Assembly (NCBI RefSeq): GCF_029953285.1
Contig: NZ_JASAOI010000085.1
Location: forward strand, 1 to 57,894
From: Yinghuangia seranimata
GTDB lineage: Bacteria; Actinomycetota; Actinomycetes; Streptomycetales; Streptomycetaceae
Reading direction: 5' to 3'
DNA: 57,894 bases
Part shown: piece after piece, positions 14,868 through 30,064 of the stretch
Layout of the letters: the number at the start of each line of letters is the position of its first letter
How positions within the stretch are numbered: position 1 is the stretch's first letter
The notes under the pieces: model-generated
What the model was told of the DNA's origin: nothing
Seen by the model: only the letters and a program-made list of their open reading frames with translations
Databases searched by the model: none
Translations under genes and position numbers: made by a program

Positions 14868-15581
14868 GTGGGCTCTCGTTCAGTCGGCGGCGATGCGGCC
14901 GCCACCGCTCTGCCGGGATGGAAATTCGTTCCGCACGTCAGGGATCCTGACCTGCCTTCTTCGGTGTACCGCGCGGCCAGCGATGCGGACTTTGTGGCCA
15001 TCGATGGGCTCTGGGCCGACGTCTACGGCGCGGAATTCGGCTGGCTGCCCTCAGGCACCGGGCCGGCCTACAAGGACCGGTATCACGAGAACGCGACGTA
15101 CCTGCTGGCCCGTGTCGAACACCAGGTGGTCGGCACGATGCGCCTCGTCGCCGATTCCGCGGGTGGCCTCCCCATCGAGCAGTTCGTCGGTATCGACGAC
15201 ATCAGGCCGGGACGCCGCCTCATCGAGTGTCAGCGCCTCATGATCCTCCCGGAGTTCCGCAACCGGCGGTTCCCGGAATTCCCGCAGGGGGTGCTGGCGG
15301 GCCTGGTCAAGGGGTGCATCCACTGGTGTCTGGCGAACGGTGTCACGCACATTCTGGCCGACCTTTTCACGCAGACCGCCACCACGCCCATCGGCCCGCT
15401 GCGGGCGCTCGGCTTCGAGGAAACCGGCAAGGAGTTCGTCGATACCGAGCTTTCCCAGGCCGGTTCGAGCGTGGCGCTGCTGCTCCGGACCGGGGAGTTG
15501 TTCTCCCGGACCTTCCGGACCGCCAGTCCGTTCTATCGCTACCTCATGGAGTACGACGAATTCGTCGACGTGTACAACTGA
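14868..15581 (+). CDS. FeeM/LuxI-like N-acyltransferase
   Basis: A 237-aa GNAT-fold protein resembling N-acyl amino acid synthases (FeeM) and acyl-homoserine-lactone synthases. VGTMRLV followed by LIECQRLMILPEFRNRR corresponds to the family strand and acyl-donor helix. Such enzymes move a fatty acyl group, normally from acyl carrier protein, to an amine. The GTG at 14868 is preferred because GGGGGATGGGAAG precedes it; ATGs at 14808 and 14829 lack a ribosome site. It is the first gene of the 14-gene cluster, 19 bp before the halogenase. The amine and acyl chain are unknown, and no carrier protein gene is nearby. Confidence 0.72.
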   Translation: MGSRSVGGDAAATALPGWKFVPHVRDPDLPSSVYRAASDADFVAIDGLWADVYGAEFGWLPSGTGPAYKDRYHENATYLLARVEHQVVGTMRLVADSAGGLPIEQFVGIDDIRPGRRLIECQRLMILPEFRNRRFPEFPQGVLAGLVKGCIHWCLANGVTHILADLFTQTATTPIGPLRALGFEETGKEFVDTELSQAGSSVALLLRTGELFSRTFRTASPFYRYLMEYDEFVDVYN

Positions 15582-15600
15582 CGGGGAAACGGAGTACCGG

Positions 15601-17214
15601 ATGACAAGGATCTCGGCGGACTTTGATGTCGTGGTCATCGGGGGCGGTCCCGGTGGCTCGATGGCGAGCACCCTGCTCGCCGATTTCGGAAAATCGGTGG
15701 TGCTCTTCGAGACTGCGAAGTTCCCGCGGTACCACATCGGAGAATCGCTGCTGTCGGGTACGGCGGACCTGCTCAAGCGGATCGGTGTGCTCGACCGCCT
15801 GGAGGACGCCGGCTACATCAAGAAGTACGGCGTCGAGTGGGTCTGGGGCGACCGGCGCGAGCCGTGGACCGTGTACTTCAAGGACGCGCTCGCGATGCCG
15901 TACGACTACGGCTACCAGGTCGAGCGCGGCCCCTTCGACCAGATGCTCCTGGAAAACGCGCGGGAGCACGGCGTCGACGCCCGCGAGCAGCACAAGGTGA
16001 CCGATTTCGCGATCGCCCCGGACGGTTCGGCCACGGTCGACTTCGAGAACACCGCGACCGGGGAAACCGGCCGTGTCACGGCGCGCTGGATCGTGGACGC
16101 GTCGGGCCAAGGCGGTCTGGTCACCAAGCGCCTCCACACACAGGAGTGGGACGACTACCTCCGGAACATGGCCGTCTGGACCTATTGGAAGGGTGCCAAG
16201 CGCCCGCCGGGCCTGGACGCGGGCAACACCTTCCTGCCCACGTTCTCCGACGGGTGGTGGTGGTTCATTCCGTTGCGCGACGACATCACCAGCGTCGGCG
16301 CCGTGGTGGACCGCCAGGCCTTCCAGGAGAAAAAGGGCATGGGCCTGGAGGCGTACTACAAGGAGTGCGTCGAGAAGACCCCCGAACTGGCCGACCGGCT
16401 CAAGGACGCCGAGCAGGTGGACGAGATCCGCGTCCAGCGCGACTGGTCGTACATCTACGACGGGTTCGCCGGCGACGGCTACATCGCCTGCGGTGACGCC
16501 GCCTGCTTCATCGACCCGCTCTTCTCCACGGGCGTCCATCTCGCCATGCTCAGCGGATTCCTCGCCGCCGTCACGGTGAACACCGTCCTGGACAAGCCCG
16601 AGTTCGACCGCGGACGCGTCCTGGACTTCTACGAGAACGCCTACCGCAAGGAGTTCGCGCGGCTGCGCGCGCAGGTGTACTTCCTCTACGGCGGCCACGG
16701 CAGCAGCAAGGACTCGTACTTCTGGCACGCGCGCAGCCAGTTCGACGTGCCCGGGATCGATCCCGAGAAGGCCTTCATCTCGCTCATCGCGGGCGCCTTC
16801 ACCCACCGGTCCTGGTACCGGCGCTATCTCGAACGGCTCGACGTCCCGGCAGAGCTGCGCGGCACGATCGAGAGCATCTTCGCCGGGAAGTCGGCCGGCG
16901 CGAACATCGACCTCGACTCGGTCCTGATACCAGGCGAGGACTTCACGAAGGCGGACGGCTTCGCGGTGGACGGCGCGCACCTGCGCGAGTCGGTCTCCCT
17001 GGAGACCCGGGAAGGCGCCTCGTTGGCCCTCACCCCGGCCATGGAGCTGCTCCTGGAACTGGCCGCCGACGGCTCCCGAACCGGCCGGCAGCTGACGGAG
17101 GCGCTCGTGGACCAGGGGGCCTGCGGCCAGGACCAGGCCCAGAACCTGGTGCACGAGTCCGTCAGCTACGGCTTCCTCACCGGCGTCGAGAAGGTGCGCG
17201 ATGGCGTTCGTTGA
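15601..17214 (+). CDS. Flavin-dependent halogenase (CmlS-type)
   Basis: A 537-aa FAD enzyme. The dinucleotide motif is GGGPGG at 14-19, a Lys pair lies at K74-K75 (YIKKYGVEWVWG) at the expected hypohalous-acid lysine, and the halogenase signature W-x-W-x-I-P is at W219-P224 (DGWWWFIPL). GDAACFIDPLFSTGVHLA follows near 296. About 100 C-terminal residues beyond the oxidoreductase core look like the winged-helix tail of CmlS, the chloramphenicol halogenase. It would chlorinate an activated substrate using FADH2, O2 and chloride. A flavin reductase is not encoded in the cluster. A plain monooxygenase is the alternative. Confidence 0.78.
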   Translation: MTRISADFDVVVIGGGPGGSMASTLLADFGKSVVLFETAKFPRYHIGESLLSGTADLLKRIGVLDRLEDAGYIKKYGVEWVWGDRREPWTVYFKDALAMPYDYGYQVERGPFDQMLLENAREHGVDAREQHKVTDFAIAPDGSATVDFENTATGETGRVTARWIVDASGQGGLVTKRLHTQEWDDYLRNMAVWTYWKGAKRPPGLDAGNTFLPTFSDGWWWFIPLRDDITSVGAVVDRQAFQEKKGMGLEAYYKECVEKTPELADRLKDAEQVDEIRVQRDWSYIYDGFAGDGYIACGDAACFIDPLFSTGVHLAMLSGFLAAVTVNTVLDKPEFDRGRVLDFYENAYRKEFARLRAQVYFLYGGHGSSKDSYFWHARSQFDVPGIDPEKAFISLIAGAFTHRSWYRRYLERLDVPAELRGTIESIFAGKSAGANIDLDSVLIPGEDFTKADGFAVDGAHLRESVSLETREGASLALTPAMELLLELAADGSRTGRQLTEALVDQGACGQDQAQNLVHESVSYGFLTGVEKVRDGVR

Positions 17215-17761
17215 GCTCGTGGCCACCGAGGGCGCGGATCCCGAGGTCCGCGCGGTGTTCGCCGCCGTCGAGGAGCAGTACGGGTTCGTCCCGAACATCC
17301 TCCGCGCACTGGCCAACTGCCCCGACCTCCTCCAGACGTTCGTGCCGTTCTGGGGGCAGGTCTACAGCTCGCCCACGATCGGTCCCCGCATGCGGGCGCT
17401 GGCGGCGCTCGGCACCGCCAAGGCCCAGGACTGCGACTACTGCGTGGCGCACATGACCGCCTCCGCCGTACGAGCCGGGCTCGTGGGCCGGGAGATCCAG
17501 GCGATCGGCGACACCATCGTCGAGCGGAACGTCTTTCCCGACCGCGAGTCCGTCGCCCTCGAACTCGCCGAGACCCTGACGCAGGACCCCGACAGCATCA
17601 CGGACGATCTGCGCGACCGGCTGCGGGCCGCGTTCACCGACCCCGAGATCGTCAACATCGTGGTCGCGATCGGCATGTACAACCTCACGAGCCGCTTCCT
17701 GAAAGCGCTGTCCGTCGAGGTGGAGGACCTTTTCGACAACGTTGGCAGGAGCTCCGCATGA
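17201..17761 (+). CDS. Carboxymuconolactone decarboxylase / AhpD-like protein
   Basis: A 186-aa all-helical AhpD-fold protein with the redox motif CDYC at C78-C81 and H84 (CxxCxxxH). This arrangement is typical of peroxidase members rather than true carboxymuconolactone decarboxylases. It overlaps the halogenase end by 14 bp and has AGAAGG before its ATG, so the two are translated together. I infer a peroxide-scavenging or thiol-redox role protecting the cluster's oxygen-activating enzymes. A direct catalytic role in the pathway cannot be excluded. Confidence 0.82.
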   Translation: MAFVELVATEGADPEVRAVFAAVEEQYGFVPNILRALANCPDLLQTFVPFWGQVYSSPTIGPRMRALAALGTAKAQDCDYCVAHMTASAVRAGLVGREIQAIGDTIVERNVFPDRESVALELAETLTQDPDSITDDLRDRLRAAFTDPEIVNIVVAIGMYNLTSRFLKALSVEVEDLFDNVGRSSA

Positions 17762-18453
17762 CCGCCGCCGTGACGCCCCGCGACGAAATCATCGAGACCT
17801 ACGGCGAGGACGTCTGGAACCTCATCCTCACCGTCTACGTGAACTTCCACGACTCCGAGCTGGAGATCATCGATTTGTGCGCCCGCTGGATCCCCCGGCG
17901 CACCGACCTGCGCGAAAAGACGTACCTCGTCCACCACGCCTCCGACGAGGTCACCCACGCGCGCCTCTTCCGCGAGGGGGTGGAGCGTCTCGGGCAGCCG
18001 TGGCACGAGCTCGACCATGCCAAGTACAAGATCCAGGACATCGACGACCGGTTCCGCAAGCTGTTCGACAGCGAGGACGAACTGGAGGTCCTGATCGGCC
18101 TGAACCTCTACGCCGAGGGCGTCCTGGCGATGGAGGAGCTCTACCAGCTCGGCCGGGGCAAGCCGCAGTACTTCTACCAGTTCGACCGCATCGAACGCGA
18201 GGAGCGCAGGCACGTCGGCTTCGGCGTCACGGTGGCCAAGCGGCTGCTCGCCGAGAGCGCGGAGAACCGCAAGCGCGCCACGGCGTACTGCAACTGGTAC
18301 CAGGAACACCTCGACGGCTACCTCGGCGGCGAGCTCGCCGACAAGATCGGCTGGGCCGTCGAGGCGGGCTTCGTCGCGGACGACTACATCCCCCGCACCA
18401 AAGAGCGCTTCCGCTCCACGATGTCCGAGCTCGGCATTCTCGAGGAGGCCTGA
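17758..18453 (+). CDS. Ferritin-like diiron oxygenase
   Basis: A 231-aa four-helix-bundle protein with a complete ferritin-type diiron set: a Glu on helix 1 (E34 or E36), E64-x-x-H67 (SDEVTHAR), E120 (LYAEGV) and E149-x-x-H152 (EREERRHVGFG). Proteins of this class activate O2 for hydroxylation, N-oxygenation, desaturation or decarbonylation. It overlaps the AhpD-like gene by 4 bp and is followed 3 bp later by a second, structurally different diiron enzyme. No close match to CmlI/AurF N-oxygenases could be asserted by eye, so the reaction is undetermined. Confidence 0.75.
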   Translation: MTAAVTPRDEIIETYGEDVWNLILTVYVNFHDSELEIIDLCARWIPRRTDLREKTYLVHHASDEVTHARLFREGVERLGQPWHELDHAKYKIQDIDDRFRKLFDSEDELEVLIGLNLYAEGVLAMEELYQLGRGKPQYFYQFDRIEREERRHVGFGVTVAKRLLAESAENRKRATAYCNWYQEHLDGYLGGELADKIGWAVEAGFVADDYIPRTKERFRSTMSELGILEEA

Positions 18454-18456
18454 ACC

Positions 18457-19116
18457 ATGGCGCAGGGATATGAGACCGCGCTCGCGGACGTCGCCCCCGT
18501 CCTCAAGAACCTGGTCGTGGAGCATCCGTTCATCCAACGGATCGTGCGGGGCGAGCTCACCGAACCGGTGTACGCGGCCTACCTCCGCGAGACCTTCCAC
18601 CTCGTCGGCGAGACGCCGCACTTCCTTGCGGCGGCCGCGGCACGCACCGAGGAGGAATGGCTGCAGGACTGGTTCCTCGACCTCGCGGTCGACGAACGCC
18701 ACCACGACCGGCTGTGCGTGCGGGACTTGAGGAACCTGGGCTACGACCCGGACTCCTACCTCGCGGGCCTGCCCGGACTGGGCACGTGGACCATGGTGGG
18801 GCAGAACCACTACCTGGCCGCCATGTCCGACACCGCCGGCATCCTCGGCTTCGCCGCCGCGACCGAGGGGCTCGGAGCCACCCTGGGCCCCCAGGTCGCC
18901 GCGGCCTTGCAGCAGTACCCGTTCGCGCTGAAGGCCTCGGCCTTCCTCCAAGTGCACGCGATGGAGGACCAGGACCACATCGCGCGGGTGAAGCAGGCGT
19001 TCGACCGCCTCGCCGAGTCGCCGGAGCGCTACGCGCTCATGACGGCCACCTGGGAGTACACCCTGCGGGCGTACGGACAGCTGTTCACCGACGCACTCGA
19101 ACGGGGCGCGCCGTGA
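18457..19116 (+). CDS. Heme-oxygenase-like diiron enzyme (HDO, TenA/PqqC fold)
   Basis: A 219-aa iron-containing redox protein of the heme-oxygenase-like fold. Metal-ligand candidates follow the HDO order: E45 and H48/H55 (RETFHLVGETPHF), E80 with H82/H83 (DERHHDR), E137 (ATEGLG), then H167, D171 and H174 (HAMEDQDH). Known HDOs include UndA, BesC, SznF and CADD, which cleave C-C bonds, oxidise nitrogen or fragment amino acids. GAGGAGG precedes the ATG and the stop overlaps the ligase start. A TenA-like thiaminase is unlikely because the acidic ligands are present and no thiamine genes are nearby. Confidence 0.72.
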   Translation: MAQGYETALADVAPVLKNLVVEHPFIQRIVRGELTEPVYAAYLRETFHLVGETPHFLAAAAARTEEEWLQDWFLDLAVDERHHDRLCVRDLRNLGYDPDSYLAGLPGLGTWTMVGQNHYLAAMSDTAGILGFAAATEGLGATLGPQVAAALQQYPFALKASAFLQVHAMEDQDHIARVKQAFDRLAESPERYALMTATWEYTLRAYGQLFTDALERGAP

Positions 19117-20720
19117 CCACTGCCCCGTGCAGGCTGCGGGCGATAGTGGACGCGATGCCGGACAAACCGGCCGGCATGCTCCACTATCGCCGCGGCGGCG
19201 AGTCGGCCGGCGCGTCCTATCCCCAGTGCCACCGCGACGCACTCGCGGTGGCGGCACTGCTGCGCGAGCGTGGAGTACGCCCCGGGGACCGGGTCGCCAT
19301 CCACGGGGACACGTCCTACGCGTGGGTGCTGGCCGACCTCGGCTGCCTGCTCGCGGGAGCCGTCTCGGTGGCGCTCTACCCCAGCGCCCCCGTGACGCGG
19401 GCCATCGGCACCGCGGCGGAAAGCGGGTGCCGGCTCGTCTTCACGGACAACCCCGGCTACGTCGCGGGATTCCGCGCGGCAGGGTTCGAGGTGGTGTTCC
19501 TCGGCGAAGGCGACGCCCCCGAGGGCGTGACGGCTTCGGTCGGCGACCTGAAATCCGGCGCGGCGCCGCCGGTGACCGAGGCCCGACCCGACGGACCGTT
19601 CACGATCGTCTCCACCAGTGGGACCCTGGCCGAACCCAAGCTCTTCGCCGTGCATTCCGCTCCGCTGCTGTTCACCATGGACCGGTTCGCGGAACTCTAC
19701 GGAATCGGCGGGAGCGACCGCCTGCTGCTGTACCTGCCGCTCTCGCACCTCCCGCAACGCATGATGCTGTACTGGGGGTTGGCCGCGGGCATGGACTTCG
19801 TCCTGTCCGACCCCGGCCATTTCGTCGCCGACACTGCCGCGTTGTCGCCGACGCTGCACGTCGCGGTGCCCAAATCGCTGCAGCACGTGCACTGGCGCGC
19901 CGTCGAGCAGGCGAAGCGGACGGGCGGTGACCGCGCGGCGGCCCTGCGCGCCGCGTTCGGGCCGTCGATCAGGGCGATCTTCGTGGGCAGCGCGCCCGCC
20001 GATCCCCACGTGCTCACCGAACTGCTGGACGCGGGGCTCCCCGTCTACGAGGTCTACGGGACCACCGAACTGGGGATGATCGGCCTGAACCGCCCCGGCG
20101 GCACCCGGCCCGGCACGGTCGGCCGCCCCATCCCCTGGGGGCAGGTACGGCTCGCCCCCCAGACCGACGAGATCCTGGTCCGCACTCCCACACCGTTCCT
20201 GTACGGCCGGCTCGGCAACGGCGGCATCGCCGTCGAGGAGCGGCCGCCGGGTACGTGGTGGCCGACCGGCGACGTGGGCGAGCTGGACCCCGACGGGTAC
20301 CTGACGGTGCGCGGCCGCCTGCGCGACTTCCTCGCGTTGAGCAGCGGCGAGAAGGTCTTCGTCCGGCCCATCGAGGAGTCGGCGGTCCGCGCGACGGGCG
20401 CCGTCCACTGCGTCCTGTCCCAGACGGAGGCGCCCGGCCTGGGCGCGCTGCTCTTCTTCGACCCCGACCGGCCAGGGGACGCGGAGGCGTGCGGCGCGCA
20501 CCTGCGCGATCTCAACGCATCCCTCCATCCATGGGAGCGGATCCGGAGATTCGCGCTGATCGACGGCCTCCCCTCGATCGAGCAGGGCACCGTCACCGAA
20601 ACCATGAAGCTGCGCCGCCACAAGATCGACGAGATCCACGGCCGCGGCGCGGCCTGGCAGTCCGTGCGGCGCGGGCCGGCGGCCGCGTCCACCGCACCGA
20701 TCAGGGGGGAACAGACATGA
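19113..20720 (+). CDS. AMP-binding acyl ligase with a variant P-loop
   Basis: A 535-aa ANL-superfamily enzyme, nearest in look to long-chain acyl-CoA synthetases: LPLSHLPQRM, YEVYGTTELG, WWPTGDVGELDPDGY and the C-terminal lysine in TVTETMKLRR. The phosphate loop reads VSTSGTLAEPK instead of TSGTTGxPKG; the lysine is kept but the second Thr and both glycines after it are replaced. It would adenylate a carboxylic acid and pass it to CoA, an amine or an unlinked carrier protein. The start is GTG overlapping the HDO stop. The next gene overlaps by ATGA. Confidence 0.82.
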   Translation: MTTAPCRLRAIVDAMPDKPAGMLHYRRGGESAGASYPQCHRDALAVAALLRERGVRPGDRVAIHGDTSYAWVLADLGCLLAGAVSVALYPSAPVTRAIGTAAESGCRLVFTDNPGYVAGFRAAGFEVVFLGEGDAPEGVTASVGDLKSGAAPPVTEARPDGPFTIVSTSGTLAEPKLFAVHSAPLLFTMDRFAELYGIGGSDRLLLYLPLSHLPQRMMLYWGLAAGMDFVLSDPGHFVADTAALSPTLHVAVPKSLQHVHWRAVEQAKRTGGDRAAALRAAFGPSIRAIFVGSAPADPHVLTELLDAGLPVYEVYGTTELGMIGLNRPGGTRPGTVGRPIPWGQVRLAPQTDEILVRTPTPFLYGRLGNGGIAVEERPPGTWWPTGDVGELDPDGYLTVRGRLRDFLALSSGEKVFVRPIEESAVRATGAVHCVLSQTEAPGLGALLFFDPDRPGDAEACGAHLRDLNASLHPWERIRRFALIDGLPSIEQGTVTETMKLRRHKIDEIHGRGAAWQSVRRGPAAASTAPIRGEQT

Positions 20721-21502
20721 GCGCGGACACCGTCGAGCTCAAGGACGGCGCGATCCGCTACCGGATCCGCGGAGACGGCCCGCCGCTCGTCCTGCTCTCC
20801 ACCCTCATGGGGACCTGGCTGCGGCAGGTCCGCGTCCTGAGCGAGCACTTCACCGTCATCACCTACGACATGCGCGGATTCGGGGACTCGCCATCGGCGA
20901 CCGGGTTCCCGTCGAACGCGGAGCACGCCGACGACCTGGCCGAACTCCTCACGGCCTGGGGCTATGACGAGGCCGTGGTGGTCGGTCTGTCCCACGGAGG
21001 CCTTGTCGCGCAGCACTTCGCGGACCGGCATCACGACCGGCTCGCAGGCTTGGCGCTCGTCGCCACGTTCGCCAAGGCCCACGACGGCACCGAGTTGTTC
21101 CTGCGCATGCTGAACGGCTTCCTCGACCGCGACGACCTGCCCAATTTCTGGGAAGTGCTCAAGAGCTTCCTGTTCTCCGCCGCGAACGCCGAGTTGCTGG
21201 ACCGCCGTGAGGCCGCGCTCAAGGCGGCGATGTTCGACCAGTACGAGGTGGCGAGCCTCCGCAGCATTTACGGGCAGGCGATGGTCCACGACAGCACCGC
21301 GTGGCTCGGTGCCGTCACCTGCCCGACGCTCACGATCGGGGGGCGGTACGACATGCTGTTCCCCCCGCCCATGACCGAGGAACTCGCCGGCCTGGTGCCG
21401 GGCTCGCGCACCGTCATGCTGCCGGCGGCGCACATCCCGCCGGTGGAAGCGCCCCGGGCCTTCAACGACGTCGTCGTCGACTTCTTCGGGGGCACCCGGT
21501 GA
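20717..21502 (+). CDS. Alpha/beta hydrolase
   Basis: A 261-aa alpha/beta hydrolase with an intact triad: nucleophile elbow GLSHGG, aspartate in GGRYDML and histidine in LPAAHIPP. It is a candidate thioesterase, esterase or amidase, possibly releasing a thioester made by the adjacent ligase. It overlaps the ligase (ATGA) and the next hydrolase (GTGA). The next gene product has the same fold but has lost nucleophile and histidine, so this is the only catalytically conventional hydrolase in the cluster. Confidence 0.85.
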   Translation: MSADTVELKDGAIRYRIRGDGPPLVLLSTLMGTWLRQVRVLSEHFTVITYDMRGFGDSPSATGFPSNAEHADDLAELLTAWGYDEAVVVGLSHGGLVAQHFADRHHDRLAGLALVATFAKAHDGTELFLRMLNGFLDRDDLPNFWEVLKSFLFSAANAELLDRREAALKAAMFDQYEVASLRSIYGQAMVHDSTAWLGAVTCPTLTIGGRYDMLFPPPMTEELAGLVPGSRTVMLPAAHIPPVEAPRAFNDVVVDFFGGTR

Positions 21503-22365
21503 CCGGGACGGCGGCCTCACAGAGCGCGGGGCGGCTGGTCTCCCTCCGCGACGCGGACGTACGGATCTACGACGAGGGCCGTCCTGACGGCCCGGCCATC
21601 GTGCTGCTGCACGGATTCCTCACCTCGGCCCACACCTGGCGGGGGATGCTCCCGCTCCTCGCCCGGGACCATCGTGTGCTGCTCCTCGACCTCCCCGGCA
21701 GCGGCCGGTCCCCGGCGCCGCGGACACGCGACTGGACGGCCGACCGGTTCGCGGACCTGCTCGCGGAACTCCTCGACGCGGAGGGCCTCACCGCACCGGT
21801 GCTGGTCGGCAGCCAGATGGGTGGCTCGCTGGCCGCGTGGTTCGCCGCCTCCCACCCCGAACGGGTCGGCCGCCTCGTGGTGATGGCGGCCGGCGTGCTG
21901 GGGGAGACCTCGACGAACCTCACGCTGTACCGGGCGCTCGCCCACCGGGTGATCGGCCCCAGGCTGGCCCGGCACTTCCCGCGCCGGGCGTTCGAGGGCC
22001 GGTGGTGGGCCGCACACGGTCCAGGGCACCTCCGGGACCCGGAGGCCTTCGCCTACTACCTCGCGCAGCTTCGTGCCCGCGGCAACGCCATGGCGGCCTT
22101 CGGTCTCGGGATCCGGATGAGCTACGGGGACACCTTCGACGCGCTGGCCGAGCCCATCCGGGGGCTGACGGTGCCGACCCTGCTCGTGTTCGGGGACGCC
22201 GACCCGCTCGTGCCCGTGTCGACCGGCCGGCGGTTCGAAGAGCTGCTCGCCGACGCGCGGCTGACCGTGTTGCCGGGCTGCGGCGACTTCCCGCAGGAGG
22301 AACGTCCCCGGGAAGTGGCCGAAGCCGTGCTGCGATTCCTCGAAGCCGAACGGACGGTGGAATGA
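21499..22365 (+). CDS. Alpha/beta-hydrolase-fold protein without nucleophile or His
   Basis: A 288-aa alpha/beta-hydrolase-fold protein. The elbow normally reading G-H-S-M-G-G is G-S-Q-M-G-G (S105-Q106), so Gln replaces the nucleophilic Ser. The motif normally G-H-F-P is GCGDFP, with Asp (D263) for the His. The acid strand VFGDADPLVP and the oxyanion strand LLHGFLTS are intact. It therefore cannot be an ordinary esterase. Cofactor-free lyases, cyclases and a structural role are alternatives. It is translationally coupled on both sides. Confidence 0.78.
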   Translation: MTGTAASQSAGRLVSLRDADVRIYDEGRPDGPAIVLLHGFLTSAHTWRGMLPLLARDHRVLLLDLPGSGRSPAPRTRDWTADRFADLLAELLDAEGLTAPVLVGSQMGGSLAAWFAASHPERVGRLVVMAAGVLGETSTNLTLYRALAHRVIGPRLARHFPRRAFEGRWWAAHGPGHLRDPEAFAYYLAQLRARGNAMAAFGLGIRMSYGDTFDALAEPIRGLTVPTLLVFGDADPLVPVSTGRRFEELLADARLTVLPGCGDFPQEERPREVAEAVLRFLEAERTVE

Positions 22366-23039
22366 CCGACCTGAACGAAGTGCGGCGGCTCCTCGACCAG
22401 GAGGGATACGCGTATCTCGCCGAGCTGCCGCAAGGGTTCGACCACTTGGAGTTCCTCAGCGGACTCGGCGAGGTGCTCCCGCAGTACGACGGTCGGCGCG
22501 TGTGGGACCTGGTTCCGGAACCGGGGATGGACGACGTCTACCACTCGCGCAACACCCAGGCGCTGGTCCCACATACGGAAGGCTACGAACTGCCCGGGCT
22601 CCCGCCGCGGTACGTCGCCCTGTGGTGTGTGCGCCCCGCCGAGGGAGTCGGCGGAGAGACCACACTCGCGGACGGATATGCCCTGCTGGAGCGCTTCAGC
22701 CCGGACGACCGCGCGGCGATGCGCGACGCTCGCTACACGTGGCGCTCGAGCGAGGGACTGGCCCGAAAAGGGATCGTGATCGAGAACCGCCATCCCATCG
22801 TCACCCGGCACCGGGACCGCTGGATCCTGCGTTTCTCGGAGAACAACGTCGAACCCACCGGCGACCAATTGCTCGGCAGGGTCATCCGCGAAGGGACGCG
22901 ATTCTTCGAACGCGAGCACCGGGCCGTCTCCATCGTCCGGAACGGGCTGTTGGCCTGGGACAACTGGCGGATGATCCACTCCCGGAACGCGTTCGTGGAC
23001 CGCGGGCGGCATCTCAAGCGCGTCCTGCTCGGCTCATGA
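22362..23039 (+). CDS. TauD/TfdA-like Fe(II)/2-oxoglutarate dioxygenase
   Basis: A 225-aa protein of the TauD/CAS fold. The facial triad is H71-x-E73 (VPHTEGYE), with Glu in place of the usual Asp, and the distal H206 (MIHSRNAF). The 2-oxoglutarate-binding arginine is R216 or R220 near the C-terminus (GRHLKRVLLGS). It is shorter than TauD (about 280 aa) and resembles compact natural-product hydroxylases. A carboxylate in the triad argues for hydroxylation or desaturation rather than halogenation. ATGA overlaps join it to its neighbours. The substrate is unknown. Confidence 0.75.
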   Translation: MTDLNEVRRLLDQEGYAYLAELPQGFDHLEFLSGLGEVLPQYDGRRVWDLVPEPGMDDVYHSRNTQALVPHTEGYELPGLPPRYVALWCVRPAEGVGGETTLADGYALLERFSPDDRAAMRDARYTWRSSEGLARKGIVIENRHPIVTRHRDRWILRFSENNVEPTGDQLLGRVIREGTRFFEREHRAVSIVRNGLLAWDNWRMIHSRNAFVDRGRHLKRVLLGS

Positions 23040-23743
23040 GCGGGTACCCGTTTCCGATCGGGGTCATCGCGGGACTCGGTCCGCTCGCCGGCGCCACGTT
23101 CTACCGCCACCTGGTGGAGGAGACGTCCGCCCGCCGCGACGCGGATCACCCGGAAGTCGTCCTGATCTCGGACCCCGCCGTCCCGAGTCGACTCGACCAC
23201 TTGAGCGGACGCGGCCCGTCCCCCGTCCCGCGGTTGGCGACCGTGGCCCACCGCCTCGAAGCGTACGGCTGCGGGCTGATCGCACTGACGTCCATCACGA
23301 CGCACGCCTACTACCAAGAGCTCTCCGACACCGTCCGCACACCCATCGTGGACGGGCGCACGGCCGTGGCCGCGAGTCTGACCTCCGCCGGGGTCACCCG
23401 CATCGCGCTCGCCGTCACCGGCCCGGCGCGCGATCTGGGGCTGCTGGACAAGCCGCTGCGGGACGTCGGCATCCATGTCCACTACCCCGACGACGGTGAC
23501 CAGCGGGAGATCCAGACGCTGGTGGACAGCGTCAAGGCCACCGGGGCGACACCGGACCTCGGCCGCCGACTGGACGCGGTGCTCGCTCGGCGGTGGAGCG
23601 CCCGAGCGGACGCCATCCTCATCGGCTGCACCGACATCTCGCCGCTCGCCGGCTACCTCGACACCGGCGGTCGCGGCGGCGCCGTCTTCGACGTGTCCAG
23701 GCTCATCGCCCGCGCGGTCCTCGCCCAGGCGGCAGCGCGGTGA
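23036..23743 (+). CDS. Asp/Glu racemase superfamily protein with one catalytic Cys
   Basis: A 235-aa aspartate/glutamate racemase-superfamily protein beginning IGVIAGLGPLAGATFYRHL. The first catalytic motif, usually C-N-T-x-H, is S86-I-T-T-H90, so Cys is Ser. The second, LIGCTDIS (C198), is intact. Two-base racemases need both cysteines, whereas single-Cys relatives include arylmalonate decarboxylase and a Thr/Cys L-specific aspartate/glutamate racemase. It may epimerise, decarboxylate or deprotonate the amino acid portion of the product. It is coupled to the TauD-like gene (ATGA) and the unknown gene (GTGA). Confidence 0.78.
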   Translation: MSGYPFPIGVIAGLGPLAGATFYRHLVEETSARRDADHPEVVLISDPAVPSRLDHLSGRGPSPVPRLATVAHRLEAYGCGLIALTSITTHAYYQELSDTVRTPIVDGRTAVAASLTSAGVTRIALAVTGPARDLGLLDKPLRDVGIHVHYPDDGDQREIQTLVDSVKATGATPDLGRRLDAVLARRWSARADAILIGCTDISPLAGYLDTGGRGGAVFDVSRLIARAVLAQAAAR

Positions 23744-25155
23744 GCGGCCCCGACGTACTGCGCCGACTGGGACTGGGCGGAGCGCGCACCGACCACGACT
23801 GGGAAGCCCTGGCCGCACGCCGAAGCGGCCTTGCCTGGCGGCACCTGGGCCGTTCGGACGTCCCCATGGCCACGCTCGTCGACACCCTGCGCGCGGTTCC
23901 CGGGCGCCCTCCGCGCACCGGACACCTTGCGGACTGGGACGACATCTGGCGCGGACGCAGCAGGATCCTCGACTACAACGCCGTCGTCTGCCGTGAGTTG
24001 GACATCGGCTACCCCCTGCTCTACGACTTCACCCAGACGGAGACAGCGGGACTCGACGACGGCGACGTCCTCTTCCTCCCCGGATCGCGCGTTCGCGGGG
24101 GCCGCCGTGAGCGGCTGCGCCTCCTGCGGTGGAACGGCACGCGGTTCGTCCCCCACGACCGCACGGAGCCGCTCTTCCTCCCCTACGTCCAGGTCGACCG
24201 GGCCGGCACGCGGATGCCGTTGGTGCGCCTGCACCGACAGGACGACAGCGCGTCCGTCGCGGCCGACCACCACTCCGCCGTCTGGACGCGGCATCGAGAC
24301 CGCCTCGCGGAAGTCCTGCGCGTGCTGCTCGACCGGGCCCCCGACGATGCCGCCCTCTCCCAGGTGTTCGCGCGGACGATCCACCGGAACGGCAGCGTGC
24401 GGCGTGCCTCCGCGGCCCGGGAACGCGGCGGGATCCGGCTCGGCGAATCCTGGTACCGGACACCCGCGGCATTGGTGGACACCGCCCTTGCCCCGCTGGT
24501 GGCGGCCACGGCCGACGAGGACCTGGAGGCGGTCATCCGCGACCTCCCCGAGGAGGCTCCGCTGGCCACCGTGGACGTCGTCGCGCTCAGCTACGCCTTC
24601 CTGGGCACACACCGCCCCGAGCGCGCACCCGCGGGCGACGGCGGCCCCGACGTCCACATCCACTGGGGCGCACTCGCCATGGGCGGCCACCCGCCCGGCT
24701 CCAAAGGGTACTTCGCGCGGCGGGCGGACTCGGTCCGGTGGATGTACGACGCGGTCGTGTCGGAACTCGCATGGGCCTCGCCGGTCGTGTTCGTCATCGC
24801 ACCCGTGGCCCCCTTCCTGCTGTGGACACCGGACCGCTGCAAGGACGACCTCGTGGCCATCGGCGACCTGCTGGCACGGATCAGGGCGGCCGAAGCCCCC
24901 GGACGCGACCGGGTCGCCGCGCTGGCGCCCGTCGCGCGGCAGACCGTCGCACGGTGGCAGCGCGACCACCCGACGTCCGAGGAGTTCCGCGCCCGGTTCC
25001 AGTGGCGCAGCCGCCTCGCCCCGACCCCGGAGCCGCTCCCGGAGAGCAGGCTCCTGGAACCTCCCGGCTTCGGCGAGCTGACCGCCGCCGAAGCCTGCCT
25101 CGTGGTCAGCACCTTGGTCGCCGCCACCACACCGACCGAGAAGAAGGACGAATGA
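23740..25155 (+). CDS. Unrecognised 471-aa cluster protein
   Basis: I do not recognise this family. The protein is soluble-looking, Arg/Asp-rich, with no signal peptide, no cofactor motif and no clear nucleotide-binding loop. Features worth noting are DIWRGRSRILDYNAVVCREL near 63-82, an HRQDD stretch near 168, HIHWGALAMGG near 305 and a hydrophobic segment VVFVIAPVAPFLLW near 348. The coding frame is well supported: GTG overlaps the racemase stop and its own stop overlaps the methyltransferase start. Its size and place amid tailoring genes suggest a core catalytic or assembly role. Confidence 0.8.
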   Translation: MSGPDVLRRLGLGGARTDHDWEALAARRSGLAWRHLGRSDVPMATLVDTLRAVPGRPPRTGHLADWDDIWRGRSRILDYNAVVCRELDIGYPLLYDFTQTETAGLDDGDVLFLPGSRVRGGRRERLRLLRWNGTRFVPHDRTEPLFLPYVQVDRAGTRMPLVRLHRQDDSASVAADHHSAVWTRHRDRLAEVLRVLLDRAPDDAALSQVFARTIHRNGSVRRASAARERGGIRLGESWYRTPAALVDTALAPLVAATADEDLEAVIRDLPEEAPLATVDVVALSYAFLGTHRPERAPAGDGGPDVHIHWGALAMGGHPPGSKGYFARRADSVRWMYDAVVSELAWASPVVFVIAPVAPFLLWTPDRCKDDLVAIGDLLARIRAAEAPGRDRVAALAPVARQTVARWQRDHPTSEEFRARFQWRSRLAPTPEPLPESRLLEPPGFGELTAAEACLVVSTLVAATTPTEKKDE

Positions 25156-25865
25156 GTTCCCCGACACCTGCGGAGCCCAGCCCGCCGACGCTCGACCGGG
25201 TACTGGTCACCTCCCGCGACTTCGACGAGTACCTGGCGATGTTCGACGTCGTCCCCGACCGCCTCCTGACCGGACGGGTACTCGACTGTCCGGGCGGAGC
25301 CAGCGACTTCGGCGCCCGGCTCCGCGAACTGGGCGGTCAGGCGGTCGCGGTCGACCCGATCTACGGAGCGAGCCTGGCCGGACTCGCCCGGCTGGTCGAC
25401 GACGAACTGCGGCGCGGCGTCCAGCACGCGCACGACGCCCGCGAACTCTACGACTTCTCGTGGGCGGGCGGGTTCGACGCGTACCTCGACCGGCGTGCCA
25501 CGGCCGCCCGGCGCTTCCTTGCCGACTACGCCCGCCGCGAGGGCCACTACGTGCAGGCCGCCCTCCCCGACACACTGCCCTTCCCCGACGGGCATTTCAC
25601 TCTGGCCCTGGTGCCGAACCTGCTGTTCGCCTACGCCAACCTCTTCGACCTCGCCTGGCACGTCCGCGCGCTGCGCGAGCTCACGAGGGTCGCGGCCGAA
25701 GTACGCATCCACCCCGTCACCGACACCAGCGGACGACCGTACGCGGACCTGTCACGGCTCACGTCGCTGCTCGCCGACGTCGGCGTCCACACCCGGTCGA
25801 TCGAAGTCGGCTACCGGCTACGCGAAGGGACCGGCTCGACGCTGATCTGCGGGTCGGACCGATGA
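25152..25865 (+). CDS. SAM-dependent methyltransferase-like protein
   Basis: A 237-aa class I Rossmann protein. Motif I is GRVLDCPGGASDFGARL (residues about 41-57), followed by the acidic strand-2 end VAVDPIYG. FTLALVPNLLFAY is at strand 4. The Cys-Pro in motif I (DCPGG rather than DxGxG) is a known variant in some actinobacterial proteins. It could methylate an acid, amine or hydroxyl of the product, but no catalytic residue proves this. ATGA overlaps connect it to the unknown gene and to rarD. Confidence 0.7.
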   Translation: MSSPTPAEPSPPTLDRVLVTSRDFDEYLAMFDVVPDRLLTGRVLDCPGGASDFGARLRELGGQAVAVDPIYGASLAGLARLVDDELRRGVQHAHDARELYDFSWAGGFDAYLDRRATAARRFLADYARREGHYVQAALPDTLPFPDGHFTLALVPNLLFAYANLFDLAWHVRALRELTRVAAEVRIHPVTDTSGRPYADLSRLTSLLADVGVHTRSIEVGYRLREGTGSTLICGSDR

Positions 25866-26782
25866 CACGGCATCGCGGCGGTGTCCTCCTGGCGATCGCG
25901 GCGTACGCGCAGTGGGGGCTCTTCCCGCTCTACTGGCCGCTGCTGAAACCGGCGGGCGCGGCGGAGATCCTCCTCCACCGGATCGTGTGGTCGTGCGTGC
26001 TCGCCGCGCTGATCATCACGGTTCGGCACCGATGGGCGCAGCTCCGCGCTCTGGCGGCACGGCCGAAGGAACGGCTGCACGTCGTCCTCGCCGCCGGGGC
26101 GATGTCGCTCAATTGGGGCATTTACATTTGGGGCGTCAACAGCGGCGCCGTCGTCGAGACGTCGCTCGGCTACTTCATCACACCACTCACGACGGTCGCG
26201 GCGGGCGTGTTGCTGTGGCGCGAGCGGCTGTCGGCCGTCCAGTGGTCGGCGGTCGGCCTGGGTGCCGCGGCCGTTTGCGTGATCACCGTCGACTACGGCC
26301 GCCCCCCGTGGATCGCGCTCGCCTTGGCACTCACCTTCACCGCCTACGGGGCCTTCAAGAAATCCCTGCAGCTCCCGGGCCTGGACGGCTTCGCTGCGGA
26401 AACCCTCGTCCTGGTTCTCCCCGCGCTCGCCGGCCTCCTCGCGCTCACCGTGGCCGGCCGCTCGACCTTCGCCGCGCAGGGCGCGGGCCACAGTCTCCTG
26501 CTCGTCGGCAGCGGCCTCGTCACGGCGGGTCCGCTGCTGTGCTTCGGGGCCGCCGCGGTCCGGATCCCGCTGTCCACGCTCGGGATCATCCTTTACGTCG
26601 CCCCGATCCTGCAGTTCGTGCTCGGGGTGACGGTCTTCCACGAACACCTGCCGGCGGCCCGCTGGGCGGGCTTCGGCTTGATCTGGCTGGCACTGGTCCT
26701 TCCCGCCCTCCGTCCGGCGCGTTCCTCACCCAGGTCAGGACAGCGCGCCGATCCCGCCCACTCAGGGAGTAGAGGAGCATGA
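25862..26782 (+). CDS. rarD: RarD-type EamA drug/metabolite transporter
   Basis: A 306-aa inner-membrane protein with about ten predicted hydrophobic helices in two EamA halves. MSLNWGIYIWGVNSGAVVETSLGYFITPL is split by the conserved N-W-x-x-Y-I-W that marks the RarD (chloramphenicol-sensitive protein) subfamily. In the cluster it is the likely exporter of the product. It overlaps the methyltransferase and antiporter genes by ATGA. It is unrelated in detail to the EamA protein at 28.1-29.0 kb, although both belong to the same superfamily. Confidence 0.85.
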   Translation: MTRHRGGVLLAIAAYAQWGLFPLYWPLLKPAGAAEILLHRIVWSCVLAALIITVRHRWAQLRALAARPKERLHVVLAAGAMSLNWGIYIWGVNSGAVVETSLGYFITPLTTVAAGVLLWRERLSAVQWSAVGLGAAAVCVITVDYGRPPWIALALALTFTAYGAFKKSLQLPGLDGFAAETLVLVLPALAGLLALTVAGRSTFAAQGAGHSLLLVGSGLVTAGPLLCFGAAAVRIPLSTLGIILYVAPILQFVLGVTVFHEHLPAARWAGFGLIWLALVLPALRPARSSPRSGQRADPAHSGSRGA

Positions 26783-28140
26783 CAGCACTCGCGCTCGCCC
26801 CCGTGTCGCCCCTCGGCAGCCACGCCCTGCAGATTTTCCTTCTGCAAGTGGGCCTGCTCCTGACCTTCGCTACGGCGCTGGGGCGGCTGGCCGTTCGGTT
26901 CGGTTGGCCGGCCGTCGCCGGTGAGCTGTGCGCAGGGGTCCTCCTCGGGCCCTCGGTGCTGCGCCATCTGGCGCCCGGCGCCTCGGACTGGCTGTTTCCC
27001 CGGCAGCCGGACCAGTTCCACCTCCTGGACGCGGTCGGCCAGCTCAGCGTCATCCTCCTGGTGGGGATGACGGGCATGCAGATGGACCTGGGCATGGTGC
27101 GCAGGTGTGGGCGCGTCGCGGCGTACGTCAGTGTGGGCGGCCTGGTCGTTCCGCTGGTGTTCGGGGTCTCGGCGGGGCTGTTCCTGCCGGACTCGTTCGT
27201 CGTCGAGGGCACCGACCGCGCGGTGTTCGCGGCGTTCCTCGGTGTGGCGCTGTGTGTCAGCGCCATTCCGGTGATCGCGAAGACGCTCATGGACATGGAC
27301 CTGTTCCACCGGGATGTCGGGCAGCTCACCCTCGCGGCGGCCATCGTCGACGACATCGTGGGGTGGCTGCTCCTGTCGGTGGTCTCGGCGGCGGCGACCG
27401 CCGGGTTCAGCGGCGAACGGATCGCGCTGTCCGCGCTGTCGCTGATCGCCGTGGTCGTCGTCGCGCGTCTGGTGGTCCGACCGCTGGCCCGCAAGGCCCT
27501 GCGCGGCGGGGACGGGGCGGCCGAACACGGGACGACGGTCGCCGCGATCGTCGCCCTGGTACTGCTTGCGGCCGCCGGGGCTCAGGCCCTGGAACTTGAG
27601 CCGGTCTTCGGGGCGTTCATGTGCGGGATGGCCCTCGTTTCGAGCGGCGCGCTGTCCCCCCGGCACCTGGCGCCGCTGCGCACCCTGGTCCTCGGCGTGC
27701 TCGCGCCGCTGTTCTTCGCGGCCGCAGGACTGCGCATCGACCTGTCCGCGCTCCGTTCCCCGCAGGTGCTCGTCGTCGCGCTGCTCGTGCTGTCGCTCGC
27801 CGTCGCGGGGAAGTTCGCCGGGGCCTACCTCGGCGCACGGCTGGGCAGATTGGGGAGGCGCGAGGCCGTGGCGCTCGGCGCGGGCTTGAACGCACGGGGG
27901 GTCGTGGAGATCGTCATCGCCACGGTGGGGCTGCGCATCAACGTCCTGACACCGGAGATGTACACGATCATCGTGCTTACCGCCCTGGTCACCTCACTGA
28001 TAGCTCCGCCCGTTCTGCGCAGGGCCATGCGGCGCATCGAACCGACCCAGGAGGAGGCGGATCGGGCGCGGGCCCTCGGTGTCCGGCCGGCCGCGGGGGA
28101 TCAGCCCGCCGCCGATCCGTCGGCGACGGTCGAGGCTTGA
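26779..28140 (+). CDS. CPA2-family cation:proton antiporter
   Basis: A 453-aa membrane protein with about twelve helices, of the Kef/NapA-like CPA2 family. The ion-binding carboxylates are in AAIVDDIVGW. The extended helix pair VGMTGMQMDL and the C-terminal GLNARGVVEIVIATVGL are also typical. There is no RCK/TrkA-N domain; the C-terminal tail is short and hydrophilic. As the last gene of the operon it suggests that the product perturbs ion or proton gradients and that this antiporter gives self-protection. A general pH-homeostasis role is the alternative. Its 3' end overlaps the convergent EamA gene by 40 bp. Confidence 0.85.
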   Translation: MTALALAPVSPLGSHALQIFLLQVGLLLTFATALGRLAVRFGWPAVAGELCAGVLLGPSVLRHLAPGASDWLFPRQPDQFHLLDAVGQLSVILLVGMTGMQMDLGMVRRCGRVAAYVSVGGLVVPLVFGVSAGLFLPDSFVVEGTDRAVFAAFLGVALCVSAIPVIAKTLMDMDLFHRDVGQLTLAAAIVDDIVGWLLLSVVSAAATAGFSGERIALSALSLIAVVVVARLVVRPLARKALRGGDGAAEHGTTVAAIVALVLLAAAGAQALELEPVFGAFMCGMALVSSGALSPRHLAPLRTLVLGVLAPLFFAAAGLRIDLSALRSPQVLVVALLVLSLAVAGKFAGAYLGARLGRLGRREAVALGAGLNARGVVEIVIATVGLRINVLTPEMYTIIVLTALVTSLIAPPVLRRAMRRIEPTQEEADRARALGVRPAAGDQPAADPSATVEA

Positions 28141-29021
28141 GCGGTGCGCGCCGGGGCGGCAGAGGGCCGGCGTTCGGTGACGAAGAAGACCGCGCCCAGC
28201 ACCATGGCCATGCCCACCGGCATGCTCCAGGTCAGGGGCTCGCTGAGGAACACCGTGCCCCACAGCACCCCGAACAGGGGGACGAGGAACGTGACGGTCA
28301 GCGCGCCGGTCGGGCCGAGGCTGTTGACCAGGCGGAAGAACAGTACGAAGCCCAGTGCGGTGCAGCCCAGCGCGAGCGCGACCACCGACAGCACGACCGT
28401 GCCGGAGACGGACTCCCGGGGCGGCATGGCCAGCGCCGGGATCAGCAGGCAGACCGCGGCCCCGAGTTGCTGGCCCGTCGCGGTGACCAGTGGGGGCGTG
28501 TCGGGGAACCGGACCTTGGCGTACACGCCGCCCAGCGCGTAGAACAGCGCGGCCAGCAGGCTCGCGGCGACGGCCAGGAGCAGCGTGCCGTCCACCTCCA
28601 ACGGGCCCAGTCCGACGAGTGCGGCGACGCCCGCCAGCCCCAGGGCGACACCGGCGAGCTGCCGGCGGTGCGGGCGCTTGTGCTGCCAAACGGCGGAGAC
28701 CAGGAGCGCGAACAGCGGGGTGGTGGCGTTGAGGATCGCCGCCAGCGACGCGGTGATCTTCAGTTCCGCGGCGGCGATGAGGGTGAACGGCGCGGCCGCC
28801 ATGAGGACCCCGAGGATGAGGAAGCCGGACAGATCGCGGCGGAAGTCCGGAACCTTGCGCACCATCACCGCGATCGCGAGCAGCGCCAGCCCGGCCAGCA
28901 GGACGCGTGCCTCGATCGTGCCGACCGGTCCGAGTACCGGGGCGGCCTGCCGCATGAAGAGGAAGGACGCGCCCCACAGCGCGCCGACGGCCAACAGAAT
29001 GACGAGATCAACCAGACGCAT
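28101..29021 (-). CDS. EamA-family transporter
   Basis: A 306-aa transporter with ten hydrophobic helices and two EamA repeats (ALWGASFLFMR at the first helix; LVPLFGVLWGTVFLSEPLTW near helix 9). These proteins export amino acids, metabolites or drugs by proton exchange. The ATG at 29021 has GAGGGG upstream, and longer readings run into the shared promoter. It is divergent from a LysR gene 95 bp away, the standard arrangement of exporter and its activator. Its stop lies inside the antiporter gene on the other strand, with no terminator between. Confidence 0.88.
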   Translation of the reverse strand: MRLVDLVILLAVGALWGASFLFMRQAAPVLGPVGTIEARVLLAGLALLAIAVMVRKVPDFRRDLSGFLILGVLMAAAPFTLIAAAELKITASLAAILNATTPLFALLVSAVWQHKRPHRRQLAGVALGLAGVAALVGLGPLEVDGTLLLAVAASLLAALFYALGGVYAKVRFPDTPPLVTATGQQLGAAVCLLIPALAMPPRESVSGTVVLSVVALALGCTALGFVLFFRLVNSLGPTGALTVTFLVPLFGVLWGTVFLSEPLTWSMPVGMAMVLGAVFFVTERRPSAAPARTAQASTVADGSAAG

Positions 29022-29091
29022 GTCGTCCCCTCGGAGTTGTCGCGTGTACCTCTTGATAGGGCAGGCGCATACATGAAACAAACAAGTACGA

Positions 29092-29108
29092 CTCATTCGA
29101 CGCATGAG
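29092..29108. promoter_or_regulatory. CTCAT-N7-ATGAG dyad in exporter/LysR divergent promoter
   Basis: CTCAT (29092-29096) and ATGAG (29104-29108) form a 17-bp interrupted palindrome just before the LysR start. An ATGA...TCAT dyad overlaps it further left. Its position between divergent exporter and regulator genes fits a LysR recognition site, although it does not follow the T-N11-A rule exactly. Confidence 0.4.
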
Positions 29109-29116
29109 GGATGCTC

Positions 29117-30064
29117 ATGAATCTCGCCCAACTGCGCGCACTGCGGGCCGTGCACGAGGCCGGCAGCGTCACCGGCGCCGCCGACCTCATCGGCGTCACG
29201 CAGTCCGCGGTGAGCCATGCGCTGACCGCGTTGGAGAGCGAACTCGGTCTGCGGCTGGTCATCCGCGAACGCAGCGGCTGCCGGCTCACCGAAGTCGGCA
29301 GACGCCTGATGCCGCACGCGGTCGAAGCGCTGCGCCACGTGGACCGGTTCGCCGAAGAGGCCACCGCCGCGGCCGGACTGGTCACCGGTCGGCTGCACCT
29401 TGGCGCCTTCCCCAGCGCCTGCCGACTGCTGCCGCCGCTGATCCGCAGCTTCCGCAAGCTGTACCCCGCGGTCGAGGTCGTCCTGCTGGAGGGGACCGAC
29501 GAGGAAGTCAACGAGTGGATCAGCCGCCGGGTGGTCGAACTCGGCGTGGTGACCGGGCCGCGGCCCGACCTGTGCATGGTGCCGCTGGCCGAAGACGAAC
29601 TGGTCGCCGTCCTGCCGGTGGAGCACCCGCTGGCCACCGAGCCCGACGTGGAACTGGCGGAACTCGCCGACGACCCGTTCCTGGTCTCCAGCGGCGGCTG
29701 CGAGCCGATGATCCGCAGCCTCTACCACCAAGCCGGCGTCGCGTTCGAGCCCGTGCACCGGATCCACGAGATGTCCACGCTGCTGGCCATGGTCCGCGAG
29801 AACCTCGGGGTAAGCGTCGTCCCGTCCCTGGCCCTCCGCGACGCGGACGACGGCACCGTGGCCCTTCCGCTCCGCCCGCCGGCGCCGCGGACCCTGTTGC
29901 TGGCGACACCGTCCGCGGCCGACCTGAGCCCGGCCGGGGCCGCGTTCCTCGACGTCGTCGAGGCGACGTTCGGCCCCCGTAGCGGTCCGCAGTCGCGGGC
30001 CCACCACCCGCCCGAGCCCCGCACGCGCTGGGCCCGGCGACCCGGTTCCCGGTCGATCGCCTGA
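29117..30064 (+). CDS. LysR-family transcriptional regulator
   Basis: A 315-aa LysR protein: N-terminal winged helix (MNLAQLRALRAVHEAGS, GVTQSAVSHALTALESELG) and a periplasmic-binding-like effector domain (LHLGAFPSACRLLPPLI, VAVLPVEHPLA, MVRENLGVSVVPSLA). The ATG at 29117 is preferred over 29111 because GAGGG then lies at a proper distance. The last ~30 residues are Arg/Pro-rich and probably disordered. It most likely activates the divergent EamA exporter in response to an exported metabolite. Confidence 0.88.
   Translation: MNLAQLRALRAVHEAGSVTGAADLIGVTQSAVSHALTALESELGLRLVIRERSGCRLTEVGRRLMPHAVEALRHVDRFAEEATAAAGLVTGRLHLGAFPSACRLLPPLIRSFRKLYPAVEVVLLEGTDEEVNEWISRRVVELGVVTGPRPDLCMVPLAEDELVAVLPVEHPLATEPDVELAELADDPFLVSSGGCEPMIRSLYHQAGVAFEPVHRIHEMSTLLAMVRENLGVSVVPSLALRDADDGTVALPLRPPAPRTLLLATPSAADLSPAGAAFLDVVEATFGPRSGPQSRAHHPPEPRTRWARRPGSRSIA

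Follow-up and report, generated by a model that had tools for sequence, protein, structure and literature searches.

A stretch of 57,894 nucleotides from Yinghuangia seranimata (contig NZ_JASAOI010000085.1, called the window here as a whole; host genome 9.8 Mb) carries at positions 14868-28140 an operon of fourteen plus-strand genes that is real, rare and conserved, and that clearly consists of two separable modules. Module A comprises the genes for a FeeM-like N-acyltransferase (NAT), a CmlS-like flavin-dependent halogenase, an AhpD-like protein, a ferritin-like diiron protein, a heme-oxygenase-like diiron oxidase (HDO), an acyl ligase and two alpha/beta-hydrolases. Module B comprises those for a TauD-family oxygenase, an Asp/Glu racemase homologue, a DUF6025 protein, a methyltransferase-like protein (MT) and the transporter RarD; an antiporter gene follows. 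Other genomes share its gene order, which makes the operon more than a chance neighbourhood. An earlier note, made from the letters of this DNA, had described a biosynthetic operon free of polyketide synthases (PKS) and nonribosomal peptide synthetases (NRPS), whose product, a small chlorinated or N-oxidised acyl-amino metabolite, disturbs ion gradients. Its PKS- and NRPS-free operon, conserved as a unit and including an N-acyltransferase-family protein, a CmlS-like halogenase and an HDO, holds, and the biosynthetic reading is supported, unlike the proposed product and its mode of action. We put at about even the chance that this is a specialised-metabolite cluster in which module A oxidises and chlorinates an acyl amine and module B serves the amine half.

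Conservation of the operon

The coordinates confirm the fourteen same-strand genes and the overlaps at eleven of the thirteen junctions that the earlier note had counted: ten junctions overlap by 4 bp and the halogenase/AhpD-like junction by 14 bp, and the other two are gaps of 19 bp and 3 bp. Lentzea terrae (locus L003) keeps the whole series of thirteen genes from NAT to RarD in unchanged order, with identities of 47-67%. Genome G1268 (L036) holds thirteen of the fourteen, from NAT to MT plus the antiporter, in the order of the window and at 60-85% identity; no match to RarD was found at this locus. Genome G757 (L033) encodes all eight module A proteins (60-71% identity), and Microbispora oryzae (L002) only the five from TauD to RarD (67-76%). 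Five loci are thus available, three of them full (the window, Lentzea and G1268) and two partial. The earlier note had named scattered, unlinked homologues in relatives as a finding that would speak against it; instead, the genes are linked in the three full loci, the window's own included, and module A also in G757. No cluster with this gene set was found in the open-licence literature searched, in agreement with the earlier note, and the operon is undescribed there as far as these searches go.

The operon is also rare. DUF6025 was found in one of 296 genomes of a class sample, the window's own, and in seven of 394 genomes of a family sample, again including it; a scan of genome contigs for DUF6025 gave two loci. 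Its profile matched 2 of the 249 genomes from Microbispora's order (Microbispora and G1268). The profile of the diiron protein matched one of 394 class genomes (the window's own) and two of 298 genomes from Lentzea's order (Lentzea and G757), with no match in the Microbispora oryzae genome or among plasmid records. Two Embleya plasmids match the ligase at 31-32% identity; in the one inspected, the matching stretch has no annotated gene. MT homologues are more widespread (18 of 197 genomes, the window's own among them, and 22 plasmid records, those listed being mostly annotated as methyltransferases), and two plasmid loci with MT homologues held no similar cluster.

Two modules with separate distributions

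The order of the module A genes is identical in all four loci that have the diiron gene (the window, Lentzea, G1268 and G757), and that of the module B genes in all four with the close DUF6025 type, apart from RarD, not found in G1268. Module kinship was assessed by counts of site patterns. Over 1114 sites of module B, patterns joining the window with Microbispora numbered 34, against 14 with G1268 and 17 with Lentzea, and the grouping with Microbispora was obtained in 1978 of 2000 resamplings. Gene by gene, the counts for Microbispora, G1268 and Lentzea were 8, 0 and 3 in TauD, 10, 4 and 1 in the racemase homologue, 11, 6 and 7 in DUF6025 and 5, 4 and 6 in MT, which alone gives no decision. 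Over 2350 sites of module A, the window shared 153 patterns with G1268, 30 with G757 and 18 with Lentzea. As module B of the window is closer to that of Microbispora than to that of G1268, either the histories of the two modules differ or Microbispora has lost module A; in Microbispora the genes upstream of module B resemble those for sugar transport, a glycosidase and NADH dehydrogenase (translations judged by eye).

In G757, NAT is preceded by genes for an ATP-grasp ligase that carries a PGM1_C domain, for a WelO5-family oxygenase and for an EamA transporter. The contig ends about 60 bases or less past the last module A gene. Lentzea has an ATP-grasp gene, its product 57% identical to that of G757, some 4 kb downstream from RarD; the genome of the window (G000), G748 and G1268 gave no match to it. 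The WelO5-family oxygenase of G757 (L033, 9024-9824), beside the ATP-grasp gene and module A, has an HND motif, which we take to be of the hydroxylase type (HxD) and not of the halogenase type.

Module A proteins and their active sites

Family scans upheld the assignments of the earlier note to the FeeM, flavin halogenase, HDO, TauD, Asp/Glu racemase, AMP-binding, EamA and Na/H exchanger families; its list had left out the two alpha/beta-hydrolases and the AhpD-like protein. It had counted five oxygen- or flavin-dependent enzymes, of which four are recognisable: the halogenase, the ferritin-like diiron protein, the HDO and the 2-oxoglutarate (2OG) oxygenase.

NAT (14868-15581, with 14808 and 14829 as other candidate starts) passes the cut-off of the FeeM family (PF21926, E 1.7e-10; 41.3 bits against 27) and is 60-70% identical to its counterparts in Lentzea, G757 and G1268. 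It also matches Autoind_synth and acyl-homoserine lactone (AHL) synthase models, all below cut-off. Together with the nearby LysR gene, these matches would fit a system for an acyl-amino signalling lipid, within the FeeM/AHL-synthase superfamily, rather than for an antibiotic. We regard a signalling system as improbable, given that the tailoring enzymes and the two to three transporters exceed what is found with known signal synthases; signalling would in any case be compatible with the biosynthetic cluster and not exclusive of it.

The halogenase (15601-17214) scores 320.4 bits against the CmlS equivalog NF033113, short of the cut-off of 900, and matches the CmlS structure 3i3l at E 6.3e-83. 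A GWxWxIP motif and a conserved Asp at the flavin site are hallmarks of flavin-dependent halogenases of the CmlS/CndH branch; both are present here, as GWWWFIP and RDWSY, in all four loci. The Asp of RDWSY aligns with position 297 of the CmlS chain in PDB (our own count), which we take to be the flavin-linked Asp277 after a tag of 20 residues. The AhpD/CMD-like peroxidase-related protein that follows (17201-17761; PF02627, E 1.4e-11) keeps CxxCxxH in all four.

The ferritin-like diiron protein (17758-18453) passes no family cut-off; its match to the R2-like ligand-binding oxidase (R2lox) family NF006200 reaches E 2.1e-8 and 33.7 bits, below the cut-off of 194. The assignment of a second diiron protein in the earlier note nevertheless stands, for alignable R2-type ligand residues (E64, H67, E120, E149 and H152) are invariant in the four loci. 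These residues align with the metal-ligand motifs of PDB chains named ribonucleotide reductase small subunit; the chains are presumably R2lox, and the identity of the ligands is likewise our assumption. R2lox binds a fatty acid. The protein aligns over about 155 residues with R2-type chains and over about 80 with AurF; it distantly resembles R2lox.

The HDO (18457-19116; PF14518, E 4.7e-14, 53 bits against a cut-off of 28.9) has the three-His/three-carboxylate set of its superfamily, with the HX3(D/E)X2H motif: E80, H83, E137, H167, D171 and H174 are invariant in the four loci and in two HDOs of hemolysin operons (see below). Its best matches among PDB sequences are 3dde, CADD, another 4-aminobenzoate synthase and MboA, and His83 is followed by an Asp, as is His89 of MboA (PMC13185094). 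The ligand set is described as common to the N-oxygenating HrmI and the C-C-acting UndA, and in five solved HDOs with this set the substrate itself ligates Fe1 (PMC13108848). The substrate of MboA does so through a carboxylate (PMC13185094).

These families also suggest a different chemistry, in which the HDO, the ferritin-like protein or both would oxidise nitrogen to a nitro, oxime, nitrile or N-N product, chlorination would be secondary and NAT would protect the amine. Both the HDO and the ferritin-like families include N-oxidases: SznF and HrmI in the former, CmlI, AurF and Dob3 in the latter (PMC13108848, PMC13061610). The diiron protein has a weak Pfam similarity to AurF (E 0.0036, below cut-off), and a scan of the Lentzea flanks shows a gene of the nitronate-monooxygenase family downstream of the cluster. 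However, the AurF match covers only about half the length of the alignment to R2-type chains, and the HDO lacks a clearly conserved fourth carboxylate. In three-His/four-carboxylate N-oxygenases of the SznF type the extra carboxylate comes from auxiliary helix 2; the tentative candidate for it in the window, E52, is replaced by Gln in Lentzea, G757 and G1268, and HrmI N-oxygenates without one. On balance we think N-oxidation as the main chemistry unlikely, though worth keeping in view.

The AMP-forming ligase (19113-20720; PF00501, E 2.3e-46) is 59-75% identical to those of the three other loci. Hydrolase 1 (20717-21502; PF00561, E 8.4e-24) retains the Ser nucleophile and the C-terminal His, in the motifs G(L/M/Q)SHGG and AH(I/V)PP, in all four loci. 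Hydrolase 2 (21499-22365; PF00561, E 4.8e-33) has GSQ(M/L)G and GCGDFP in place of the Ser and His signatures in all four, and so falls outside the serine hydrolases by its catalytic residues.

Module B proteins, transporters and regulator

The TauD-family Fe/2OG oxygenase (22362-23039; PF02668, E 5.3e-23) keeps the HTE, H and R of its HTE...H...R motif in the four loci with module B; a comparison with PDB sequences gave no match. The racemase of the earlier note (23036-23743) is indeed homologous to the Asp/Glu racemases (PF01177, E 9.6e-24), but an aspartate racemase it is not by its active site. Aspartate racemases have two catalytic cysteines; here alignment with 1jfl places the Ser of TSITTH at the first and keeps the second, in CTD, in all four loci. 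A similar one-Cys pattern is found in arylmalonate decarboxylase. The score against the cysteate racemase CuyB model NF052483 is 145.1 bits, below the 190 required.

The protein of 471 amino acids (23740-25155), unrecognised in the earlier note, belongs to DUF6025 (PF19490, E 4.8e-142). It gave chance-level matches only among PDB sequences, and the open-licence literature searched held no mention of this family. MT (25152-25865), a class I methyltransferase-like protein, reaches E 0.17 only in Pfam, but its homologues among genomes and plasmids are in keeping with the methyltransferase of the earlier note.

A more distant branch of DUF6025 (29-35% identical) lies in a separate conserved cluster (L010-L016). 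It occurs in six genomes from the family of the window. Two Vibrio tubiashii plasmids have a DUF6025 match as well, and the cluster was read in one of them (L010, 7464-21654 of NZ_CP117031.1). This cluster encodes an AMP ligase, a citrate synthase, an aconitase, an enolase-like protein, an LLM monooxygenase, two ATP-grasp proteins and a hydroxyacid dehydrogenase, the last unmatched in L015 among the matches listed. The citrate synthase carries an N-terminal carrier-protein domain (Pfam, L011 only), and the LLM proteins of Vibrio and of the six genomes are 62-66% identical. Nothing relevant to a DUF6025/citrate-synthase cluster was found in the literature searched.

RarD, an EamA/RarD-type transporter (25862-26782; PF00892, E 1.5e-11), is 72% identical in Microbispora and 48% in Lentzea. 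The Na+/H+ exchanger family antiporter (26779-28140; PF00999, E 1.3e-48) has a homologue of 67% identity in G1268; the one in Lentzea is displaced and reaches only 36%, and the Microbispora module B locus gave no match. Because the antiporter, on which the disturbance of ion gradients in the earlier note rests, is so weakly conserved in Lentzea, that role is unsupported. The conserved neighbourhood extends beyond the antiporter to 30064, with a second EamA transporter on the minus strand (28101-29105; PF00892, E 2e-34) and a LysR-family regulator on the plus strand (29111-30064; PF03466, E 2.2e-42). Both are placed and oriented in G1268 as in the window (74% and 68% identity). In Lentzea, RarD is followed by LysR (42%), EamA (32%) and the antiporter homologue, with LysR and EamA in the opposite orientation to the window. 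The second EamA transporter is 32% identical in G757 as well.

Proposed pathway

Gene content, gene order, conservation, the separability of the modules and the active-site residues are observed; for the chemical steps and their order we infer the following scheme. The ligase would convert a free, probably fatty, acid into acyl-AMP or acyl-CoA, and NAT would use it to acylate an amine or amino acid at nitrogen. Oxidation of this acyl-amino product with O2 would fall to the HDO and the ferritin-like diiron protein, with a free carboxylate probably bound by the iron of the HDO, and the halogenase would add chlorine, most likely on the acyl part; all three enzymes could act on the acyl donor or on the product. 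The AhpD-like thiol protein may handle peroxide leaking from the oxidising enzymes. Module B would supply or tailor the amine half: the 2OG oxygenase may hydroxylate an amino acid, the racemase homologue may catalyse a one-base reaction (decarboxylation or isomerisation) instead of two-base racemisation, DUF6025 would contribute one step of unassigned chemistry, MT would cap the module B product and RarD would export it. A chlorinated or N-oxidised product is possible, to judge from the conserved halogenase motif and from an HDO ligand set that fits N-oxygenating and C-C-acting enzymes alike.

Several points weigh against this specialised-metabolite reading. The chemistry, substrate and product included, is deduced from sequence. 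No flavin reductase and no carrier protein was recognised among the fourteen genes. NAT, at 41 bits, is far from characterised enzymes and other acceptors are conceivable; homologues of CmlS include proteins not named halogenases (QhpG at 189 bits, LodB at 150 bits); and, with 61 AMP-binding matches in the window's genome, a ligase beside other genes is not telling in itself. The grouping of the window with Microbispora in module B would fit a joining of module B to module A as well as a loss of module A in Microbispora, and no DUF6025 match was found in the G757 assembly, yet the cluster there stops at the contig end.

Finally, the scanned flanks of the window hold mostly catabolic genes (amidohydrolases, CoA-transferase, MmgE/PrpD, acyl-CoA dehydrogenases). 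With the conserved LysR gene, and with hydrolases and oxygenases that are common in catabolism, they could indicate an operon for the uptake and breakdown, or detoxification, of an acylated or halogenated compound. The combination of halogenase, N-acyltransferase and methyltransferase is one for synthesis and not for degradation, however, the RarD and EamA families are mostly exporters, and the genes around the block differ in Lentzea, G757 and G1268 (translations judged by eye), so that we hold a catabolic role to be quite improbable.

A wider form of the biosynthetic reading, to which we give tentative and rather less than even credence, is a carrier-free system with a fixed eight-gene core, for activation of the acyl donor, N-acylation, chlorination and diiron oxidation of two kinds, and with interchangeable amine-side modules: 2OG oxygenase, DUF6025 and MT in the three full loci, and WelO5-family oxygenase and ATP-grasp in G757, provided that this genome really lacks module B. 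In such a system DUF6025, the one-Cys racemase homologue and the triad-less hydrolase may perform undescribed chemistry, and the ferritin-like diiron proteins may form a new enzyme family. If so, a core open to exchangeable partner modules would produce halogenated acyl-amines with no need for assembly lines, and would be easy to rebuild in a laboratory host. A substrate context would also be at hand for DUF6025, for the diiron family and for the ligase/HDO pair of thermostable-hemolysin operons. The five loci allow residue-level tests at once.

Comparison with known systems

The nearest biochemical logic is that of the actinobacterial acyltransferase TyzA, whose predicted structure is nearest FeeM. 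TyzA couples tyrosine with lauroyl-CoA, and the product is then desaturated by a flavoenzyme that depends on O2 (PMC10404671). The Tyz/Oxz acyl-oxazolone pathways resemble the operon in using an acyltransferase of FeeM-like predicted structure, acyl-CoA plus an amino acid, and O2-dependent oxidation without PKS or NRPS; an ATP-dependent cyclisation follows (PMC10404671). Unlike them, the fourteen proteins of the window have no Pfam match to ThiF or to a nitroreductase-type desaturase, and the operon has two diiron proteins, a halogenase and module B instead.

The chloramphenicol cluster, which holds CmlS, CmlI, CmlK and an NRPS, shares with the operon a CmlS-like halogenase, an acid-activating ligase and diiron chemistry. 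It differs in its diiron families, in the distance of its halogenase (320 of 900 bits, as above) and in the NRPS module, absent from the operon. A further likeness through the name RarD was dropped as weak.

Adjacent ligase and HDO genes follow a T_hemolysin gene in two of the three plasmids with HDO matches, the two that were read, from Variovorax and Pseudoalteromonas. There, at L026 (5825-10215) and L029 (3844-8081), T_hemolysin, an AMP ligase, an HDO, an SDR-family protein and a further protein are encoded. The HDOs are 32% and 23% identical to that of the window, and the ligases 32% over 206 residues and 20% over 471. The plasmid operons differ in their first gene, T_hemolysin (PF12261), in the SDR gene, for which the window's fourteen proteins give no family match, and in having no halogenase; the window's operon falls outside this dth type. 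NAT was considered as a T_hemolysin homologue, but no sequence match was found. In Vibrio cholerae the adenylating enzyme DthC is encoded in a "dth-region" beside a thermostable hemolysin (PMC12208996), in what we regard as an operon of this type. No paper on the chemistry of the ligase/HDO pair was found in the literature searched.

In the mangotoxin (mbo) and bes clusters an HDO oxidises small amino-acid-derived molecules without an NRPS; both pair the HDO with an ATP-grasp ligase. The ATP-grasp genes with PGM1_C at the G757 locus and downstream in Lentzea add to the likeness, whereas the window's fourteen proteins have no ATP-grasp Pfam match and the HDO has other partners. At least 25 kinds of cluster are reported to pair an HDO with an ATP-grasp ligase (PMC13185094), and the Lentzea or G757 type may already be among them.

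Other genes at the loci

Directly upstream of the Lentzea cluster (L003, 125-952) lies a gene for a ParB/StrR-like regulator, by eye; it has no Pfam match. Farther along the window, on the minus strand, a heme oxygenase family gene (45222-45911; PF01126, E 2.3e-54) adjoins a gene for a flavoprotein of the Nuo51/NADH-FMN type (43889-45331). Two MmgE/PrpD-family genes (37732-39498 and 52894-54270) stand 13 kb apart in mostly catabolic surroundings.

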